Assembly (NCBI GenBank): GCA_023249225.1 | Contig: JAHFDA010000022.1 | Location: forward strand, 1 to 40,445 | DNA from: a bacterium | GTDB lineage: Bacteria > Margulisbacteria > Marinamargulisbacteria > JAHFDA01 | Length of the DNA: 40,445 nt | Reading direction: 5' to 3' | In this document: piece by piece, positions 31,314 to 40,445 of the stretch | Layout: every line of letters begins with the position of its first letter | Numbering within the stretch: the stretch's first letter is position 1 | Position numbers and translations under genes: made by a program | The notes under the pieces: generated by a model | Database searches by the model: none | Told to the model about the DNA's origin: nothing | What the model saw: only the letters and a program-made list of their open reading frames with translations

Positions 31314-32114
31314 ATGGCAACCGTTTTTTCTCCCGTGCTCACACGCCTTTGTCAAACCCTTGGTTTGACCGACCGAAACCAAAATGCCAGCATCGATGCC
31401 ACAGGTGAGGAAGGCTATTTGCCGGTTGCCGATCTCAATCTAGACGGAAAACTTGTCGCCAGTGAAATTCGCTATTATGCCTTGCAACTGGGTACGGTGC
31501 CCCCGGCACTGCTGGCTGAAAACCCGTGGCAGCCGAAAGATGCCGAGGATATTTTTTTAAGTGTTCAAGATGCTACGGTTGAAGCTTTGGCAGCCATTGA
31601 CGAAACAAAAATCGCCAGCGACAGGCAAAAAGACCCTGTCAGTCGTCCGGCCAGACTTGTCATTGAGCAACATATGCGGGCGCTGACTCTGGCGCTAAAT
31701 GAAGCTCGCCTCATCAAAAGTTTTGGGTTGGATCTTGATTTTTTCCGGAGCGATCTTGAAGCCGTGATGGACAGCTATATGTTTCTGGCCCATCCCAGCA
31801 AGTTTGCCTGGACGGCCGACGATCGCAGATTGCTCATAGAAGCGGGTGACGCCGCCGTAAAAACAATTGTTCAATCGGGATTATTTGCGCCCGACGATTA
31901 TGCCCGGTTTAAGGTCAATGTCGATCTGGCCAATCAAACCCATCGTTTTGCCATGCAAACGCCCTTACAAGCCGGCGAAGATGTTTTTACCACCGATAAT
32001 CCGGAACTCCAGGTCGAAATAGTGCCCATGCCAGAAAATATTCATGAGATCTTGCGGCAACAAGAAGAACTTAAACGCAATCCGCCGCCGCCACCCATAC
32101 CGGATATCAAATAA
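31314..32114 (+). CDS. EF-hand-containing hypothetical protein (266 aa)
   Basis: Residues 40-51, DLNLDGKLVASE, form a textbook EF-hand loop (D1, N3, D5, G6, E12), so calcium binding is likely. An upstream segment TDRNQNASID resembles a second, degenerate loop. The rest is helical, and the last 25 residues are Pro-rich (NPPPPPIPDIK). No signal peptide is evident, so it is probably cytosolic. The stop overlaps the nadA ATG by one base (TAATG), which couples it to quinolinate synthase. No family recognised beyond the EF-hand. The 216 bases upstream contain no gene; a possible -10 (tctataaat) lies near 31268. Confidence 0.7.
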   Translation: MATVFSPVLTRLCQTLGLTDRNQNASIDATGEEGYLPVADLNLDGKLVASEIRYYALQLGTVPPALLAENPWQPKDAEDIFLSVQDATVEALAAIDETKIASDRQKDPVSRPARLVIEQHMRALTLALNEARLIKSFGLDLDFFRSDLEAVMDSYMFLAHPSKFAWTADDRRLLIEAGDAAVKTIVQSGLFAPDDYARFKVNVDLANQTHRFAMQTPLQAGEDVFTTDNPELQVEIVPMPENIHEILRQQEELKRNPPPPPIPDIK

Positions 32115-33196
32115 TGCCCATGACCTTATATAAACGCCAAGCCCTGCGTGAACTCTACGTGACCGATCACGACGAAATCCTGCGCCTGCAAGCCGAGTGG
32201 CAGTTGCATCCGCTGCGCAAGGACTGGTATACCCTGGATCGCTGCTATGAGATTTGGGATCTCATGCAAAAGATCAAGGTCTTAAAGGCCGAACGTAAGG
32301 CTGTGATCCTGGCGCATTCCTATGTGGTGTCAGAAGTGCAGGCGGTGGCCGATAAAGTTTCTGATTCTTACGCCTTAAGCCTGGAGGCCAGGGCCACCCA
32401 GGATGCCGATGTCATTTTGTTTGCGGGAGTGCATTTTATGGCCGAGACGGCCAAAATTCTCAACCCTGAAAAAACCGTGCTGATCCCAGATATGTTGGCG
32501 GGTTGTTCGCTGGCAGAATCAGCCGACGAGGATGATGTGATGGACTGGCTCGACAAATTACGTGCCCAATATGCTGACCTTGTGGTGGTCACCTACATTA
32601 ATTCTTCAGCGGCGGTCAAGGCGCAAAGTGACGTCATCATTACGTCTTCTAACGCGCGCGCAATTTTAGAAAAACTGCCCAACCGGAACATCGCCTTTTT
32701 GCCCGACAAATTTATGGGCGCTTATTTTCAGGAACGCATGCCCGAAAAAACTTTCCATTTATGGAACGGCACTTGCATGGTGCATGAGCAGATTACGCCC
32801 GAGGAATACCAGCGTATTCTGGCGCATTGGCCCAACGCCGTACTGGTGACGCATCTTGAGGCGCCACCCAAAACCACGGCCATGTCGCATTTTACGGGCA
32901 GTACCACGGCCATGCTTAAATACGCCGAAACTTTACCGCCCGGCACCACAGTGGTGCTAGGCACGGCTTGTGGCGTGCCTACCTTGTTGCGCCAGCGCCT
33001 GGCCAAGCTGGGCAAGGAGCGTGACCTTACCGTGGTGGGCGGTTGCTATACCTGTCCGCACATGGAACGTAATACCATCGAAGGCGTGTACCGCGCTTTG
33101 CTTACCATGCAGCCCGAAGTCAAAGTAGAGGCTCCCATTGCCGCGCAGGCGCTTAAAGCCATTGAGCGCATGATTGCGCTGGCAGGCGAAGTTTAG
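32114..33196 (+). CDS. nadA: Quinolinate synthase NadA
   Basis: 360 aa. It condenses iminoaspartate with dihydroxyacetone phosphate to quinolinate, the second step of de novo NAD synthesis, using a [4Fe-4S] cluster. Family motifs: VILAHSYVVSEVQAVAD (64-80), SDSYALS, ILFAGVHFMAETAKIL (101-116), PDMLAGCSLAESA with C131, LWNGTCMVHEQ with C221, FTGSTTAML (260-268) and GGCYTCPHM with C311/C314. These supply the cluster-ligating cysteines. The usual HPEC is THLEA here, so that cysteine is absent. No nadB or nadC lies in the window. The ATG overlaps the stop of the EF-hand gene; MTLYK at 32120 is an alternative start. Confidence 0.95.
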   Translation: MPMTLYKRQALRELYVTDHDEILRLQAEWQLHPLRKDWYTLDRCYEIWDLMQKIKVLKAERKAVILAHSYVVSEVQAVADKVSDSYALSLEARATQDADVILFAGVHFMAETAKILNPEKTVLIPDMLAGCSLAESADEDDVMDWLDKLRAQYADLVVVTYINSSAAVKAQSDVIITSSNARAILEKLPNRNIAFLPDKFMGAYFQERMPEKTFHLWNGTCMVHEQITPEEYQRILAHWPNAVLVTHLEAPPKTTAMSHFTGSTTAMLKYAETLPPGTTVVLGTACGVPTLLRQRLAKLGKERDLTVVGGCYTCPHMERNTIEGVYRALLTMQPEVKVEAPIAAQALKAIERMIALAGEV

Positions 33197-33240: not shown

Positions 33241-33612
33241 ATGCTGATTTTCAAAAAAGTTGCCGAACGCCCAGGCCTATGGCGCCAGTTTTGTGATTGG
33301 GTAGGACATGTCCGTCAGGGGAACTGGATGGGTGGCGATGTACTGACAGGGTTTAGAGCTGAAGTCATGGAACCCGCTACGTTATTGGGTTGCTTGTTAG
33401 TGAAGCGGCCCGTGTCAGTGGACATGATGATCCAGCACGGTCAACCTAAACTGATCATCATCAATGTAGATGAAGACATGGTCGAAGGTTTGAAAAAAAT
33501 TCTTCAAGACATGGCAGCGCCACGCTCGGCCAGGAAGCAGCGCATTTTACGCGTCGAAGACGGGCAGTTGCTTTATCGGGGCTATGAAGTCCGTGTGGTG
33601 GCGCGGGATTGA
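33241..33612 (+). CDS. Hypothetical protein (123 aa)
   Basis: No family recognised. The centre PVSVDMMIQHGQPKLIIINVDEDMVEGLKKIL looks like a small alpha/beta domain; Cys are at about 18 and 51. The ATG at 33241 is only about 15 bases after tatgatat, so the message may have almost no leader. Its stop lies just before the start of the next gene, suggesting an operon. Confidence 0.6.
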   Translation: MLIFKKVAERPGLWRQFCDWVGHVRQGNWMGGDVLTGFRAEVMEPATLLGCLLVKRPVSVDMMIQHGQPKLIIINVDEDMVEGLKKILQDMAAPRSARKQRILRVEDGQLLYRGYEVRVVARD

Positions 33613-33617
33613 CTTTG

Positions 33618-34904
33618 ATGGTTTATAAAAGATTGGCGCTGGAGTCTGAATGGTTCCAGACCTCAACGGAACCCGAGCATTCCCGTCGGTATGTCTGGCT
33701 GGGTATGGCGCTGCTGGTGCCGGTTTTGGGTGCGATGGGAAGCATTCTTTTTGCGGTTCTAAATTCTGCTTCGGTTCCCGAAGAAGCAGCGGTGCAGCCA
33801 CAGACAGCGGCAGATCCTTACGAGCCTCAAAAAATTCAAGTTGCCCATGATCTGCTGACCCAGACGCAACAAGCCAGCACAGCAGAGCAGGCCAAGTTCA
33901 AAACCTTGTTTGAATCAGGTGTCCTACGCGATGAGCTTTATTACACCGTGTATGCGCCTTATGTTGCCGACGAAGATCGCCATTTACTGCCGGACTACAT
34001 TGATTTTTGCCGCCGCTACCGGGAGCATACCTTTATCGATTGGGGATCAAGTTATCGGGTGAATGGGCCAGATTCAACGGGAAATCAGTCTGCCACACAA
34101 TTTAATTTGGTGCTGGGGCGCTGGCTGACACTCACGGGCAAAGGGCATCGCCGATATTCGTTTGACCAGGATTTTTCGCAGTTTAAGGCGGTGGCAGACT
34201 ACTACCAACCGGAAATTCGTGAATGGCTTAATGCCATGCCCCAGGTGGCGCTCGATGATGTGGTGCTGGCTTACCGTCTGACGCAGATTCCAGAATTAAA
34301 GGAGGCTTGGCAAGACCGCGAGGGGCTGATGCACCTCATTCAAGCTTCTGCACGCAAGGGCAAGCAACGTACAGACTATGACCCGGGCGTTGTATTAATA
34401 GACGATCTTGAACAATTTCCAGACATGGATCTATTGAAGATTTTTTTGTTGCAGCAGGCGCTGATTCAAGACAATGCCTTGCGGCGGAAAATCGTAGACC
34501 TGATCACGCTCGATCAAAGCGTGCGTTATGCCGATACCGAACTGGGTGGCGCTGTGCGCATCGATCCAGAAAGTGGAAAACTGGGTTTGGTGGTTGTGGC
34601 TCCCTGGCAAAATGGACAGTCGGCACAGGACTGGTTTTATACGCCGGCGGATGCAGTGTATTACAGCAGCCAACTGACTTTTTCAGAATTTCACTTACAT
34701 GCATTTTTGACCGATGCCAGCGCTTATGCTGGACCCTCTTCGCTGGATATCAATGCGTCGGCCTATCACCAGCACTATGCGGGCACGCAGATTACAGCCC
34801 TGGCCAATGGAAAATTTAACGTACACTATTACCGTACGCCCAAGGACGATCCCGGAAGCGTCTTTGTTTACAATTTGGGGGCGTTTAGTTTGCTAGAGAA
34901 ATAG
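33618..34904 (+). CDS. Hypothetical membrane-anchored protein (428 aa)
   Basis: No family recognised. The ATG at 33618 follows a TTG (33609) that overlaps the previous stop. A single transmembrane helix (about 25-48, YVWLGMALLVPVLGAMGSILFAVL) follows a basic N-terminus, so the remaining 380 residues are probably periplasmic. That domain is Tyr- and Asp-rich and mixed alpha/beta, with SYRVNGPDSTGNQS around 145-160. It converges with the kinase gene, with five bases between the stops. Confidence 0.65.
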   Translation: MVYKRLALESEWFQTSTEPEHSRRYVWLGMALLVPVLGAMGSILFAVLNSASVPEEAAVQPQTAADPYEPQKIQVAHDLLTQTQQASTAEQAKFKTLFESGVLRDELYYTVYAPYVADEDRHLLPDYIDFCRRYREHTFIDWGSSYRVNGPDSTGNQSATQFNLVLGRWLTLTGKGHRRYSFDQDFSQFKAVADYYQPEIREWLNAMPQVALDDVVLAYRLTQIPELKEAWQDREGLMHLIQASARKGKQRTDYDPGVVLIDDLEQFPDMDLLKIFLLQQALIQDNALRRKIVDLITLDQSVRYADTELGGAVRIDPESGKLGLVVVAPWQNGQSAQDWFYTPADAVYYSSQLTFSEFHLHAFLTDASAYAGPSSLDINASAYHQHYAGTQITALANGKFNVHYYRTPKDDPGSVFVYNLGAFSLLEK

Positions 34905-34909
34905 TCGGG

Positions 34910-35752
34910 CTAATCGATGAGCGCAAGCAGCGCGCGTTTAAAAGCAAGGGCGCTTGAAAAGCGTTCCTCGGGGCGGTCATGCAGGGCCTGGGCCAAGAGT
35001 TGGTCTAGTCCGGGAACTTGTGAAACCCGGCTTGCGAGTAGCTTTTTCAGGCTTAGTGCAGTGGCATAGATGTCGTCGCATATTTCTGTAGATAAGGAGT
35101 CGATCTTCCAGTCTCGATCCGCAGATGCCATTAACGCCTGATAGCGGGCCTGTTTTTCGGGCGGCCAGAAACTGATTGTGCCTGGTTTAACACGATCAGC
35201 CTCTGTCAGCAGCGCGATTCCCTCCAAATTAAATGTGATGGCGGCGTCGAAGTCAGCCAGTTTAAGCACCCAGCCATCGGGATCCTTGCGCACCAAAATA
35301 TTTGAGGGTTTGACATCGCGATGCGCAATGCCAAGACTGTGGCAGTAGGCCAGCACCGAAAGTACCCGACCCATCAGGCGGATGATCTCTTGAGCGCGAA
35401 GCGCTGATTGTCTTAGCGTGTATAAATTTCCGTGCATGTATTCAAGCGCAATAAAACAGCGGCGATCAGAATCAAAGCTGGCATAGGTTTCTAAAACATA
35501 GCGGTGCCTAAGTTTTTCAAGCAGGGCAGCTTCGCGTCTAAAAGACTGACGCAGAGCTTCGGTTTGAAGGGCATGGGGCATGAGTACTTTAAGGGCCACC
35601 TTGCGGCGCTGTGCTCGATCAAAAGCCTCCCAAATTTGAGTATGCGTTCCCTGGTAAAGCGCCTGCCGTATCTCAAAGGCCGGTAAGGGTTGTGTACGCA
35701 CGCGGGCATCTTCACCCACTGCGCTGCGATGATATTGAAAGCTAGGTGGCAT
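34910..35752 (-). CDS. Hanks-type serine/threonine protein kinase with DFD motif
   Basis: 280 aa, almost entirely kinase domain. The glycine loop is degenerate (ALYQGTHTQIWEAF). ALKVL supplies the ATP-anchoring K55, E74 is the likely helix-C partner, IAHRDVKPSNIL gives the catalytic loop (H144-R145-D146, N151), LADFDAAI has DFD (167-169) in place of DFG, and FWPPEK (196-200) is PPE in place of APE. The catalytic Asp, Lys and Asn are present, so activity is plausible despite the changed DFG. It lacks membrane and sensor domains, so it is probably cytosolic. It is divergent from the unknown gene at 35865. Confidence 0.85.
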   Translation of the reverse strand: MPPSFQYHRSAVGEDARVRTQPLPAFEIRQALYQGTHTQIWEAFDRAQRRKVALKVLMPHALQTEALRQSFRREAALLEKLRHRYVLETYASFDSDRRCFIALEYMHGNLYTLRQSALRAQEIIRLMGRVLSVLAYCHSLGIAHRDVKPSNILVRKDPDGWVLKLADFDAAITFNLEGIALLTEADRVKPGTISFWPPEKQARYQALMASADRDWKIDSLSTEICDDIYATALSLKKLLASRVSQVPGLDQLLAQALHDRPEERFSSALAFKRALLALID

Positions 35753-35864: not shown

Positions 35865-37316
35865 GTGTCGCAACGCCATCTTATTGCCACATACAGTCGT
35901 TTATTGCCCGTAAAGTTAGGCTTTCAGCCGGCACAGCAAGAATTTTTACCGCGACCGGATACATTCATGATCCAAACAGATCACGGTCTGGAGCAAGGCT
36001 TTCCGGACATCACGGGTCCATCTATGCCGCCCTGGTTTCATGATTACTGGATGCCCACGCGTGGCCCGGTGGAATGGGTCAAGGCCCGGGTGACCATGCT
36101 TCCGGGCATGGAATTTTGGGCCAACCGGCACATGCGCCAGTGGCTTGAAACGCTTTTGCCTGCAGTAAGAAATTCAGCAGTGCGTGAGGTGCTGATGCAA
36201 GACAAGGCCGATGCCCTTAAATTTTTTATTGAGTCTTATCCCTTTGTCGAAGCCCCGCACCTGCAGCGGGACTATATTGCGGCCATGGGTCAGTTATCCG
36301 AAGGTTGCGCGTGGGATTACCTGGACGCGCTAAGTCTTTTTTTGGTGACGCAGATTAACCGGGCAGATGTGGACATGTCCGTCAAAGTGCAGGCTGTGTT
36401 TGCCATGCTGTGGATGGATTTTTTAACGGGTAACCTGTGGAATCGCAACATGCTCGAAGGCATTTGCGTTACAACGCTGGCAGGTAATTTAAAAATGCTT
36501 TTGCTGGATTATTTTACGGCCCGGGGCTACCTCGATAGTGACAGCGTGCCGCGTTTGAGATTGCTTTTGCAAGCGCAGCCGGGCGTGGTTTGGACAAACA
36601 GAGGCGTGGTGTTAGCCACCGAGACAGCCCTGATTCCAGCCGTGACAGCATTTAATAACTCGCAGGGGAAATACCTGATTGACGTTAAGGGCATGGTGCA
36701 AAGTCAGGAATTTCTTAACCGCTTTCCAGTGTGTCTAAGTTGCAACATCAAGGTGTCTGGCATAGCGGTTGAATGGGTGACGGTTTCTCCCAGAAAGTAC
36801 GTCAAGGACAGGTTGCTTGAGTTTTGCGACCGCTATCCCCAACTGGCCTTGGCCTATGCCGACATCAGCCCTGGCTTTGGATTTCTTTTTCGGACACAAG
36901 TCAAAGCAACCATGTTCTTAAACCAGATGGGGCACATGCATGCGCTGGCGGATGCTGCGCGGAGTGTTTTTCTAGCCCGGGGCTACACAGTGTATGGTAA
37001 GGCAGAATACCTTACCTTTAAAGATGCCTTGGGAGAGCTGGTGCAGGATTGGCTGGCCTGGGCCTCACGGGATATCGAGGTGGGCGATAATTTTTCAGCC
37101 TTGCCGCAGCCCGAGGGCATGCAACTTAAAGTGGCGTGTCAGAAGCACGTTAAGGCAGAGGAATATCTGGATCCAGACCGGCGTGAACAAGCCTTGAGCC
37201 TTACGGTTGAGCTTGAAATTTATGAAACAAAGTTGCGTTGGAATTATGTGCTCACCAGAACAGGCGAAACGGTGTTGTCGGTGGTGAAGATCCCCGGTGC
37301 GCGCGGGGCGGCCTAA
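35865..37316 (+). CDS. Hypothetical protein (483 aa)
   Basis: No family recognised. GTG start (MSQRHLIATYSRLL). No signal peptide. The centre contains a moderately hydrophobic region (MSVKVQAVFAMLWMDFLTG, then CVTTLAGNLKMLLLDYFTA) that may be buried rather than membranous. Later segments (PVCLSCNIKVSGIAVEWVTVSPRK) are beta-rich, with two cysteines. Methionine, Trp and Tyr are common. Its divergence from a protein kinase gene across a shared promoter suggests a functional link, such as kinase substrate, but that is inference. Confidence 0.68.
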   Translation: MSQRHLIATYSRLLPVKLGFQPAQQEFLPRPDTFMIQTDHGLEQGFPDITGPSMPPWFHDYWMPTRGPVEWVKARVTMLPGMEFWANRHMRQWLETLLPAVRNSAVREVLMQDKADALKFFIESYPFVEAPHLQRDYIAAMGQLSEGCAWDYLDALSLFLVTQINRADVDMSVKVQAVFAMLWMDFLTGNLWNRNMLEGICVTTLAGNLKMLLLDYFTARGYLDSDSVPRLRLLLQAQPGVVWTNRGVVLATETALIPAVTAFNNSQGKYLIDVKGMVQSQEFLNRFPVCLSCNIKVSGIAVEWVTVSPRKYVKDRLLEFCDRYPQLALAYADISPGFGFLFRTQVKATMFLNQMGHMHALADAARSVFLARGYTVYGKAEYLTFKDALGELVQDWLAWASRDIEVGDNFSALPQPEGMQLKVACQKHVKAEEYLDPDRREQALSLTVELEIYETKLRWNYVLTRTGETVLSVVKIPGARGAA

Positions 37317-37398
37317 TCTGGCTTAACAAGTTCGCTAACACATCCATCCACGATTTCCAGGTTGCGTGTGGTACGATGTAATACAAAGGAGTCTTTTC

Positions 37399-37617
37399 AT
37401 GTCTGAATCCATTAGTATTCGCTTACCCAGACAACTTCAGAAGGATCTGGAAAGCCTGACCAGAGAGGAAAAAGTATCTAAGAGTGATGTCATCCGGCAG
37501 GCAATCGAACAATACCTTTCGCTAAGAAAGTTCCGCGCGCTCCGTAAAAAAACCCTTCCGTTCGCCGAGGCCCAGGGATGGATTACCGACGACGATGTTT
37601 TTAAGGCGCTGGCCTAG
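37399..37617 (+). CDS. Ribbon-helix-helix (CopG-like) antitoxin
   Basis: 72 aa from the ATG at 37399 (AAAGGAG upstream); an earlier in-frame ATG has no ribosome site. SISIRLPRQLQKDLESLTREEKVSKSDVIRQAIEQYL is a textbook RHH fold: a beta-strand, a helix and the SKSDVIR turn. The C-terminal part (AEAQGWITDDDVFKALA) would wrap the toxin. It binds its own promoter in the usual way. The next gene starts directly after its TAG. Confidence 0.88.
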   Translation: MSESISIRLPRQLQKDLESLTREEKVSKSDVIRQAIEQYLSLRKFRALRKKTLPFAEAQGWITDDDVFKALA

Positions 37618-38019
37618 ATGAAGGTGGTTTTAGACAGCAATGTCATTATTGCCGCTTTTGCCACCCGGGGTTTTTGTCACGAAATATTTGAACTGTGCCT
37701 GCGCCAGCATCAGGTTTTTACCAGCGAATTTATTCTTAAAGAGTGCCGCCAGAAATTTCACGCCAAGCTAAAGTTGCCCGACGTCTTGTGTGACAGGCAC
37801 TTGGCCTATTTAAAAACGGTCATGGAACTTGTAAAGCCCGAATTTGTTGCCGCAGATTTTTGCCGAGACAAGGATGATCGTGCCATTTTGGGCACAGCGC
37901 TTGCCTGCCAGGCCGATGTCCTGATCAGCGGGGATAAGGATCTGTTGGATCTCAAACGGATACAGCAGGTGCACATTGTGACCCCCAGGGAGTTTTGGGA
38001 ATTGCTGTCGCGTGGGTAA
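37618..38019 (+). CDS. PIN-domain RNase toxin (TIGR00305-like)
   Basis: 133 aa. MKVVLDSNVIIAAFATRG gives the first acidic residue D6, FILKECRQKF gives E42, RDKDDRAILGTALACQADVLISGDKDLLDL supplies D87 and D106/D108. The order and spacing fit the PIN-family toxins of the COG1569/TIGR00305 group, metal-dependent RNases. ATG abuts the antitoxin stop. All active-site acids appear intact, so toxicity is expected when the antitoxin is lost. Confidence 0.9.
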   Translation: MKVVLDSNVIIAAFATRGFCHEIFELCLRQHQVFTSEFILKECRQKFHAKLKLPDVLCDRHLAYLKTVMELVKPEFVAADFCRDKDDRAILGTALACQADVLISGDKDLLDLKRIQQVHIVTPREFWELLSRG

Positions 38020-38209
38020 CGAAAAAAAATGGGTGACATCGTTTCAAGGGATTATATCTAAAATATTAACTACAGATGCCATCTAATTCTATCGAGATAT
38101 TTATGCCCGATTATTTTGAGTTATTCATGGCCCGGCTTTAACAAAAAGGTTAAATAAATCAGGCACCGAAGCTGCAGAAGTTCCAGTAGATTTGACCAGG
38201 AGGATTTGC

Positions 38210-39409
38210 ATGTTCAATAACCGTAGAATCGCCGAAGCTAAAATTCAAGGACTCACTTTTGTGCTTACCGATGAACTGGCTTCTGATCCCGCCAAACTTT
38301 CTGCGGCCATGGACGCCCACAGTGATCCTGTGCGTGCGCGTCTGGAAACCTATGCGCAGCTTGCGGATCGGCACTTCAATTCCGCCGATGGCGCGGTGCG
38401 GCAAGCGGCTGGGGAGCGTATTGGACAACTGCTGCCGGGATTCAACTTGAGTGGCGTGGAACAAAAAGACGGCGTGGCCCAAGTAAGCCGCGCGGTGTTT
38501 CCGGTGGACATCACCAACGACTTTATGATCATGCAGGGCGACATCAGCGCCGACAGCGTGTTGCAAGCCCGCCTGGGACGCCGCAAGGTGTGGGATCGTT
38601 TTCCAATTTATCATCGCAACGGCGTGGCCAATCCTTTTAACGGCCAACATGCTTTTACTCCCCGCGAGGTCATGCCGGGCGAATTTATCAGGGATTTTTG
38701 GGGCACGCTGCCCATTCCGGGCGCGCAGGCGCTTATTCCGCGGATGGCGGGTTTTATGCGTGAGGTTGCCGGCCTGGATTCGGTTCCAATTGCTTTCTTG
38801 GTAGATGCCCACGAAGTCGACGACGAGGACTATACCGTCAATTGGGAAGCCGCCGCGCTTTTTAACAACGGCCTGCCCGGGCCATGGCCTTACCACAACA
38901 TGATCGACACCGTGGGTCAGCAAATGGTGCGCGAGGTGTGGGAAGCCTGCGGACAGCGCATGGAAACCTGGACCAAGAAACTTTTTAACGGTTTTCACAC
39001 CGATTATGCCCGCATCCGTTTAAAGCACCAGATGATCAACGAAGCGCAAATTTTTGGCGTGGCCAGTGAAATTTGCGATACGGCCACCGCTTTGGGCGCG
39101 CTGGATATTATTGTGAACCACCAGCGCTGGCCGATGAGCGTGGTCATGATCTATGACCTCATGAAGGCGCTCGATCCCGTACGTTCCAAGGCTGTCATGC
39201 TTGACCTGCACAAGCGCGGCGTGTTTTTTACCACGAGCGACCCTTTGCAAGTGTGGCTGGGCGAAAGCCATCACGTGGGCAATGTTGCTCCGTCTACGCC
39301 TTACATGGCCTTAAGCAATGCGGCTAGCCTCATCCGCAGCGGCAGGAGCGTGGCCTATGCGGTCGACAGGATACTGGAGTACCGTCCAGCCGAAGAACGC
39401 GTAGGGTAG
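38210..39409 (+). CDS. pncA: Enlarged nicotinamidase (isochorismatase-like cysteine hydrolase)
   Basis: 399 aa from the ATG at 38210 with a perfect AGGAGG (38198-38203). I read it as a nicotinamidase fold in pieces. FPVDITNDF holds the catalytic Asp (D100), GTLPIPGAQALIPRM (165-179) is the usual strand-turn, FLVDAHEVDD (197-205) and GPWPYHN (224-230) resemble the D-x-H and WPxHC metal ligands, TKKL (255-258) is the catalytic Lys region, and FGVASEICDTATALGAL (282-298) holds the nucleophile C289, with IYDLMKAL and GVFFTTSD after it. It would convert nicotinamide to nicotinate. Normal PncA has about 210 residues; here there are about 90 extra N-terminal residues and an insertion of about 55 after D100. 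Three bases separate it from the phosphoribosyltransferase gene. Confidence 0.7.
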   Translation: MFNNRRIAEAKIQGLTFVLTDELASDPAKLSAAMDAHSDPVRARLETYAQLADRHFNSADGAVRQAAGERIGQLLPGFNLSGVEQKDGVAQVSRAVFPVDITNDFMIMQGDISADSVLQARLGRRKVWDRFPIYHRNGVANPFNGQHAFTPREVMPGEFIRDFWGTLPIPGAQALIPRMAGFMREVAGLDSVPIAFLVDAHEVDDEDYTVNWEAAALFNNGLPGPWPYHNMIDTVGQQMVREVWEACGQRMETWTKKLFNGFHTDYARIRLKHQMINEAQIFGVASEICDTATALGALDIIVNHQRWPMSVVMIYDLMKALDPVRSKAVMLDLHKRGVFFTTSDPLQVWLGESHHVGNVAPSTPYMALSNAASLIRSGRSVAYAVDRILEYRPAEERVG

Positions 39410-39412
39410 GCG

Positions 39413-40445
39413 ATGTTGTTCAGGCAAGTTGCGCTCGCTTTTGAAAATCAATTCTCTGCCCTCATGGGCCAGCATCTGCCGTATTCCGTCATTCAACTGT
39501 TTCCGCCGCACCTGCGCTTTTTGTATTTATCGCATAACCGCGTACTGACCACCGATACTTACAACCGCACCATGCATCTGGTATCCCGTGATTTATGGAA
39601 TGCGCCTACGGTGTATGTGCAAAGCATGCGCCGCAGCCCCTTTGGAAAAATAGTCGTGGCGGGCGTAGATACGTTGCTCGACCGCGTTTTTGGCCGCCCG
39701 ATTACCGCAGGCGAGGTGCGCGTGGCGGCTGAACTGGCCGAACGCCAGCAACAGCACTTTCCGGCCGACATGTGGCAGAGGGTGCTCGACAACGGTGGCT
39801 ATGTGCCCATCGATATCCATGCCGCGCCCGAAGGCGAAGTGCTTTTGCCGCACGAGCCCATGTTTACGATCAGCGGGCCAGACGCGCTGGTGGGCCATTT
39901 TGAGCCGACGCTGATTCCCATTTTTTATCCCTGCGCCGTGGCCACGCACATGTTTATGCACACCGAACAAGGTCTCAAGCCCTTTGCGGCGCAGGCCCCG
40001 CGCAATGTGCCGGATCCTTACATGGGTATTCTCACGGATGAGGCGGCTCATGTGGGCGGCGTTAAGAACACTTCCAACGATGCTTCCGCCGTAGCGGTCG
40101 AGGGCATCACATCGTGGGGCACGATAGCGCACCGTTATTTGTCACTCATGTTGCTTGCAGGCTTTTCTGAATACGATGCTTTTAAGCGCGTTGACGAAGA
40201 ACTGGTGGGTCCCGTTTATCTTGTCGATCTGCTCGATACTCTGGGCAGCGGTGTACCGGCGGCCATCCGCGTCATCAAAGAATCCAAAAAACCCCAGCAC
40301 ATGCACGCCATCCGCCCGGACAGCGGCGACATGGCCATCATTATTCCAGAAATTTTGCGTATGTTGGCTGCCGAAGGTCTCAACCAGGTTCGCGTGGTTA
40401 ATTCAGCCCTCTCGGGCAAGGGCAGCCTTGCGGAACGCAAGCGTG
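39413..40445 (+). CDS. pncB: Nicotinate phosphoribosyltransferase, 3' end outside window
   Basis: 344 codons are present and the frame is open at the window edge. ATG at 39413, three bases after the nicotinamidase stop. Family landmarks of NAPRTase/NAMPT enzymes: TDTYNR near 47-52, WGTIAHRYLSL (235-245), VDLLDTLGSG (271-280) and RPDSGD (301-306), the phosphate/PRPP-binding loop, followed by VRVVNSALSG. It makes nicotinate mononucleotide from nicotinate and PRPP. With the upstream nicotinamidase it forms a Preiss-Handler salvage pair. Whether the substrate is nicotinate or nicotinamide cannot be settled without the missing end, but the neighbour favours nicotinate. Confidence 0.88.
   Translation, partial: MLFRQVALAFENQFSALMGQHLPYSVIQLFPPHLRFLYLSHNRVLTTDTYNRTMHLVSRDLWNAPTVYVQSMRRSPFGKIVVAGVDTLLDRVFGRPITAGEVRVAAELAERQQQHFPADMWQRVLDNGGYVPIDIHAAPEGEVLLPHEPMFTISGPDALVGHFEPTLIPIFYPCAVATHMFMHTEQGLKPFAAQAPRNVPDPYMGILTDEAAHVGGVKNTSNDASAVAVEGITSWGTIAHRYLSLMLLAGFSEYDAFKRVDEELVGPVYLVDLLDTLGSGVPAAIRVIKESKKPQHMHAIRPDSGDMAIIIPEILRMLAAEGLNQVRVVNSALSGKGSLAERKR

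Follow-up and report, generated by a model that had tools for sequence, protein, structure and literature searches.

A probable nicotinamidase, strongly diverged and enlarged, encoded beside a nicotinate phosphoribosyltransferase gene

How far can a nicotinamidase drift from its family and grow in size while its active site is kept? The locus studied here raises this question. The window, by which we mean the whole stretch of 40,445 nucleotides that was analysed, is the entire contig C100 of a 2.83 Mb genome that is 97% complete, and close to its end lies a gene for a 399-residue protein, followed by a gene for nicotinate phosphoribosyltransferase (NAPRT, PncB). In the salvage pathway, nicotinamide is converted to nicotinate, then to nicotinate mononucleotide (NaMN), which is turned into NAD by NadD and NadE. 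An earlier note had described the 399-residue protein as an enlarged, hard-to-recognise nicotinamidase coupled to NAPRT, and this description is borne out by a profile comparison, the predicted fold, the active-site residues and two relatives in the phylum. The protein is very probably a strongly diverged nicotinamidase (PncA), which would be an active metal-dependent cysteine amidohydrolase converting nicotinamide to nicotinate. Both the enzyme step and the gene pair are ordinary; what is unusual is the divergence and the enlargement of the protein.

The features of the gene pair are collected in Table 1. An alternative TTG start at 38192 would give a protein of 405 residues, but without the AGGAGG spacing of the annotated ATG. 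Of the six reading frames, the annotated one fits the codon usage best in every segment of PncA, extra segments included, although the preference is weak in the C-terminal tail (0.033). The complete ordinary nicotinamidases compared have 178-256 residues, so that the protein is indeed about double the usual size. Among the PF00857 loci of the phylum, the comparison covered L004/L005 and the genes of genomes G040 and G073, with L036, L038 and L039 left out.

Table 1. Features of the pncA-like gene and of the NAPRT gene that follows it (positions of the window; residues of the 399-residue protein).
Feature	Position	Strand	Basis
Ribosome-binding site AGGAGG of the pncA-like gene	38198..38203	+	Direct sequence reading
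Enlarged nicotinamidase (PncA-like)	38210..39409	+	ORF, ATG to stop, 399 aa; PF00857, PDB phmmer, phrog_19305, profile control
N-terminal extension, residues 1-92	38210..38485	+	Alignments A4, A6; coding by codon usage
Putative catalytic Asp D100 in VDITNDF, F105 at +5	38507..38509	+	Alignments A3, A4, A6
Insertion of ~55 aa after the catalytic Asp, ~residues 107-162 (edges +/- ~10)	38528..38695	+	Alignments
Putative metal ligands D199 and H201	38804..38812	+	Aligned with D-x-H of SpNic-type proteins; roles from PMC6271260
Lid insertion of ~15 aa, ~residues 209-223, between H201 and W226	38834..38878	+	Alignments
W226-P-Y-H229, putative stacking aromatic and metal ligand	38885..38896	+	Alignments
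Putative catalytic Lys K256, F259 at +3	38975..38977	+	Alignment
Putative catalytic Cys C289 in GVASEIC	39074..39076	+	Alignments
C-terminal extension of ~56 aa, residues 344-399 and stop	39239..39409	+	Alignments; weak coding signal
Nicotinate phosphoribosyltransferase (PncB/NAPRT), first 344 aa	39413..40445	+	TIGR01513, 2f7f, G040 homologue

Family profiles hardly recognise the protein. Against PF00857 it scores 19.1 bits (E 1.5e-3) and does not reach the curated cut-off of 27 bits; it is not filed under this family because of that score, although the cut-off is a detection threshold and not a biochemical feature. An NCBIfam profile search with the 399-residue protein returned no match. It is also the only PF00857 match in the genome that carries the window. 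In a phmmer search of the PDB, the best sequence match was the Pyrococcus horikoshii nicotinamidase (1ilw/1im5, E 4.2e-7, residues 159-338), and phrog_19305 matched with an E of 3e-7. Moreover, a profile built from eight ordinary nicotinamidases, from which the window protein was excluded, gave it a score of 36.6 bits, whereas the highest-scoring of 2000 shuffled copies reached 9.7; L028 was included in this profile, and L017 was left out since its sequence is cut short. On this sequence evidence, the resemblance to nicotinamidases is not a matter of chance. In two-sequence BLASTP comparisons the window PncA matched that of G073 with an E of 3e-8, and the match to the G040 nicotinamidase was not significant (E 0.22). 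A pattern search gave nine loci, four of which hold nicotinamidases (L017, partial; L019; L022; L023, cut at the locus end), the matches in the other five (L018, L020, L021, L024 and L025) lying in short or unrelated frames; only the four were taken into alignments A3 and A4.

The motifs expected of a nicotinamidase, from VDITNDF to FTTSD, are all present where the earlier note had placed them. The Asp-Lys-Cys triad occurs in order (D100, K256, C289), with the Cys closing the pattern G-[VL]-x-x-x-x-C, and within the Lys pair that had been remarked upon, K256 is the one that aligns with the catalytic Lys. The D-x-H ... H of the nicotinamidase metal site can be read as D199, H201 and H229, and aromatics are found at the nicotinamidase positions, five residues after the Asp, at the start of [FW]PxH and three residues after the Lys (F105, W226 and F259). 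Compared with nicotinamidases of the Streptococcus pneumoniae type (SpNic-type; L007 of phage G and L012-L014 of Bacilli), D100, K256, C289, D199, H201, W226 and H229 are kept. For SpNic itself, PMC6271260 gives the triad as D9/K103/C136, the Zn ligands as D53/H55/E64/H71 and the aromatics as F14/F68/Y106; by spacing F105 would correspond to F14 and F259 to Y106, while W226 would be the counterpart of F68. A285, four residues before C289, aligns with the oxyanion-hole position, whose role is described in PMC3025910.

The window PncA lacks the third His that the metal site usually has, and D207 or a neighbour stands there instead: MAFFT puts D207 at the fourth ligand position, with E206 and E214 near, in a lid that is longer in the window protein. 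This fourth protein ligand varies within the family, being His57 in Mycobacterium tuberculosis and Glu64 in S. pneumoniae (PMC6271260 and PMC3025910). According to PMC3025910, the His57Asp variant of the M. tuberculosis PncA has very low pyrazinamidase activity left, and in P. horikoshii and Acinetobacter baumannii the His corresponding to His57 does not bind the metal. The loss of the third His is therefore not decisive, since the latter two enzymes do not use it.

The two adjacent genes and the active-site residues are observed, and from them we infer activity, substrate and mechanism. In the most likely mechanism, modelled on that of solved nicotinamidases, D199, H201 and H229, perhaps together with D207, would coordinate a metal to which the pyridine nitrogen binds, and F105, W226 and F259 would pack against the pyridine ring. 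D100 and K256 would activate C289 for attack on the amide, with release of ammonia, and the thioester left on C289 would then be hydrolysed by water. The nicotinate so formed could be joined to PRPP by NAPRT to give nicotinate mononucleotide, from which NadD and NadE would make NAD.

A single-sequence prediction of the full-length protein reached a pLDDT of 33, and residues 88-351 modelled with a nine-row alignment a mean pLDDT of 57 and a pTM of 0.57. A Foldseek comparison of this modelled core, which had been proposed as a check, matched the isochorismatase-like fold with nicotinamidases best; the top PDB match is the S. pneumoniae nicotinamidase (E 1.5e-7), for a low-confidence model that had a nicotinamidase alignment as input. 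In VIA-align, where rows within 1 Z are considered tied, the best rows were 3hb7 (Z 16.2, rmsd 2.8, 168 residues aligned), which is named merely isochorismatase-like hydrolase, and 3o92/3o93 (Z 16.0, rmsd 3.1, 170-172 residues aligned), while non-nicotinamidase members of the fold scored Z 13-15. Because nicotinamidases made up its input alignment, the model shows compatibility with this fold and is not an independent proof of it. Among viral models, no Foldseek match reached E 0.001; the highest-ranking ones were nicotinamidases of giant viruses (E 0.015-0.017), one of them 427 residues long, and they are not counted as evidence.

The strongest independent support for the assignment is the adjacency of pncA and pncB in the phylum. 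Of 74 phylum genomes, three match TIGR01513 (NAPRT) and seven match PF00857, and in all three NAPRT-bearing genomes a PF00857-type gene adjoins the NAPRT gene. The spacing of three bases between the pncA-like stop and the NAPRT start (39413) had been read correctly in the earlier note. In G073 the order is nadE, pncA, pncB, with a pncA-pncB gap of 2 bases, and the 231-residue PncA passes the PF00857 cut-off (E 8.6e-32). In G040 the order is pncB, pncA, nadE, and the 256-residue PncA matches NF008623 (E 4.1e-38) and passes the PF00857 cut-off as well. The two clusters hold the same pathway genes as the window, and G073 also the same pncA-pncB order; their PncAs are of ordinary size, and unlike both, the pair in the window has no adjacent nadE. 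Two strong NAD synthase matches lie on other contigs of the genome (C43 and C6).

The NAPRT frame is open at the end of the contig (40445). The protein matches TIGR01513 with an E of 1.6e-30 and 106 bits, where the cut-off of 297 applies to the full length and the window holds a part only; the fuller NAPRT proteins of G040 and G073 are also under this cut-off. It further matches the solved nicotinate phosphoribosyltransferase 2f7f (E 2.3e-17) and is 41% identical to the G040 protein over 336 columns, which cover most of the N-terminal extension. With the window NAPRT as query, the G040 protein was the only relative found in the phylum. Motifs TD-x-Y, GT-x-AH and DSGD are typical of nicotinate phosphoribosyltransferase, and TDTY, GTIAH and RPDSGD are present in the window frame. 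In the organism the gene is apparently complete and only broken up between two contigs, since C27:1-381 encodes a matching C-terminal part of 126 residues, 41% identical to G040 residues 392-516. The window part aligns to the G040 protein as far as residue 351, so that a few dozen residues between the two parts are unread or too diverged to align. Around QAPRNVPDPYMG (window 39413-40444), the NAPRT segment differs from the RRAQ of 2f7f in that the first Arg alone is kept, and the equivalent segment of the G040 NAPRT (L028 8132-9688) likewise keeps the first Arg alone; as the segment is reduced in this way, the two proteins may bind substrate differently. About 1.5 kb past the NAPRT end, on the opposite (convergent) strand, contig C27 (L030) carries a gene for a NUDT9/TRPM2-type ADP-ribose pyrophosphatase (L030 1882-2697, -; 1q33, E 5e-25).

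Could the protein be something other than a working nicotinamidase? It might belong to the isochorismatase-like cysteine hydrolases but use a different amide, such as biuret, ureidoacrylate, carbamoylsarcosine or maleamate, and lie beside NAPRT by coincidence; the weak PF00857 score would fit, as would the Z scores of non-nicotinamidase fold members and the noncommittal name of 3hb7. The metal site, however, distinguishes nicotinamidases from other isochorismatase-like hydrolases, and here the D/H/H site and the WPxH lid motif are kept, the closest PDB sequence is that of a nicotinamidase, and NAPRT has a PncA-like neighbour in each of the three phylum genomes that encode it. We consider a different amide substrate unlikely. 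Very unlikely, in our judgement, is the reading that a nicotinamidase has here become a pseudo-enzyme, either decayed or regulatory, with a binding role taken on by its extra segments: the extreme divergence, the four added segments and the lost third His would agree with it, but the triad is complete, three metal ligands and three stacking aromatics are still present, the reading frame is unbroken and its codon usage native, and the genome has no second PF00857 match.

The extra segments might also be an artefact of a wrong start, a frameshift or a chimeric assembly. The gene is indeed close to the contig end, and the coding score of its tail is weak. Against this stand the single uninterrupted frame, the good ribosome-binding site ahead of the annotated start, codon usage that is frame-specific in all segments and the matching NAPRT gene end on C27, and we regard an artefact as extremely improbable.

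As the earlier note had seen, a long N-terminal extension and a large insertion after the catalytic Asp account for part of the added length, of about 92 and about 55 residues in the alignments; the BLAST match to the G073 protein extends to residue 117, inside the estimated insertion. Lid length is known to vary among PncAs, with an insertion of 13 residues in that of A. baumannii (PMC3025910). No relative of the N-terminal, post-Asp, lid or C-terminal extra parts was found in any collection searched. Most likely, these segments are additions round the mouth of the active site and at the termini, which may affect stability, lid closure or assembly; the earlier note had suggested that they may add regulation or alter the oligomer form. 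In a rather unlikely variant they would dock on NAPRT, giving a nicotinamide-to-NaMN complex in which nicotinate is passed on directly; with the NUDT9-like gene, the region could salvage the nicotinamide as well as the ADP-ribose that NAD cleavage yields. If the extra parts did form such a complex, they would offer a handle on metabolic channelling.

Relatives of the whole 399-residue protein were found in none of the genome contigs, viral contigs, plasmids or phages searched; among 36 relatives, 27 class genomes and 74 phylum genomes there was one match each, every time the window's own genome. Degenerate WPxHN patterns retrieved short SpNic-type nicotinamidases only, in one viral contig (phage G) and three genome contigs, and another pattern retrieved none. 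A viral scan with four of these nicotinamidases again returned phage G only, and viral scans with the window NAPRT alone or with the window and G040 NAPRT pair returned no relative. Among 50,697 phage records, 83 matched NAPRT, all below 60% identity; four phage NAPRT neighbourhoods were examined, of which that of phage G has an annotated isochorismatase-type gene near, two have none and one belongs to an unannotated record. No enlarged bacterial nicotinamidase with the architecture of the window PncA was found in the titles and abstract openings returned by searches of an open-access library.

Among characterised proteins, SpNic (3o90-3o94) and the Bacillus and Staphylococcus PncAs (5zn8, 6kua) share with the window PncA the triad, the Asp and two His ligands, the aromatic set and the [FW]P-x-HN lid motif, and the core fold appears alike by the model; they differ in having about 180-215 residues, without long terminal extensions or the post-Asp insertion of about 55 residues. 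The P. horikoshii enzyme is 28% identical to the window PncA over 164 residues in a structural alignment, but is a compact protein of 180 residues that lacks the added segments. The Drosophila nicotinamidase (9u8m) is also enlarged, with 357 residues, about 95 of them before the core, and scores Z 13.3 against the 88-351 model; the likeness of its extension to that of the window PncA is one of length. Bacillus phage G encodes in one stretch (gp275-gp283) an isochorismatase-type hydrolase, NAPRT, NaMN adenylyltransferase and NAD synthetase, the differences being the phage genome, a nicotinamidase-like protein of 180 residues and one gene between hydrolase and NAPRT.

Thus a nicotinamidase can fall below profile detection and about double in size with its whole active site kept. 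Profile-based annotation misses the nicotinamide salvage step here, as NCBIfam names nothing and the Pfam score stays under the cut-off; the pathway call is corrected for the window's organism, whose phylum has few genomes with NAPRT (3 of 74).

Other genes of the region may be mentioned. PADLOC recognised neither the nicotinamidase nor NAPRT, so the reading as a defence system was dropped and none is proposed. The quinolinate synthase gene nadA, of de novo NAD synthesis, precedes the salvage pair by 5 kb (window 32114-33196; PF02445, E 6.9e-96). Frames of 483 residues (window 35865-37316) and 431 residues (33609-34904) had no Pfam, NCBIfam or PADLOC match. Between them lies a gene for a short Ser/Thr protein kinase (window 34910-35752, -; PF00069, E 2e-29), which also scores with the PADLOC PD-T4-6 kinase models (E 9.4e-37), probably via the shared kinase domain. 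A ribbon-helix-helix/PIN-domain pair resembling a toxin-antitoxin system is located directly upstream of the pncA-like gene (window 37366-38019), and a further PIN-like frame was seen by eye at L030 6687-7091. Finally, an aminotransferase-like protein is encoded near NAPRT both in the window's genome (G000; L030 4276-6279, -) and in G073 (L042 4801-5979, +), directly after NAPRT in the latter, and the two are 27% identical over 346 columns (E 4e-29).
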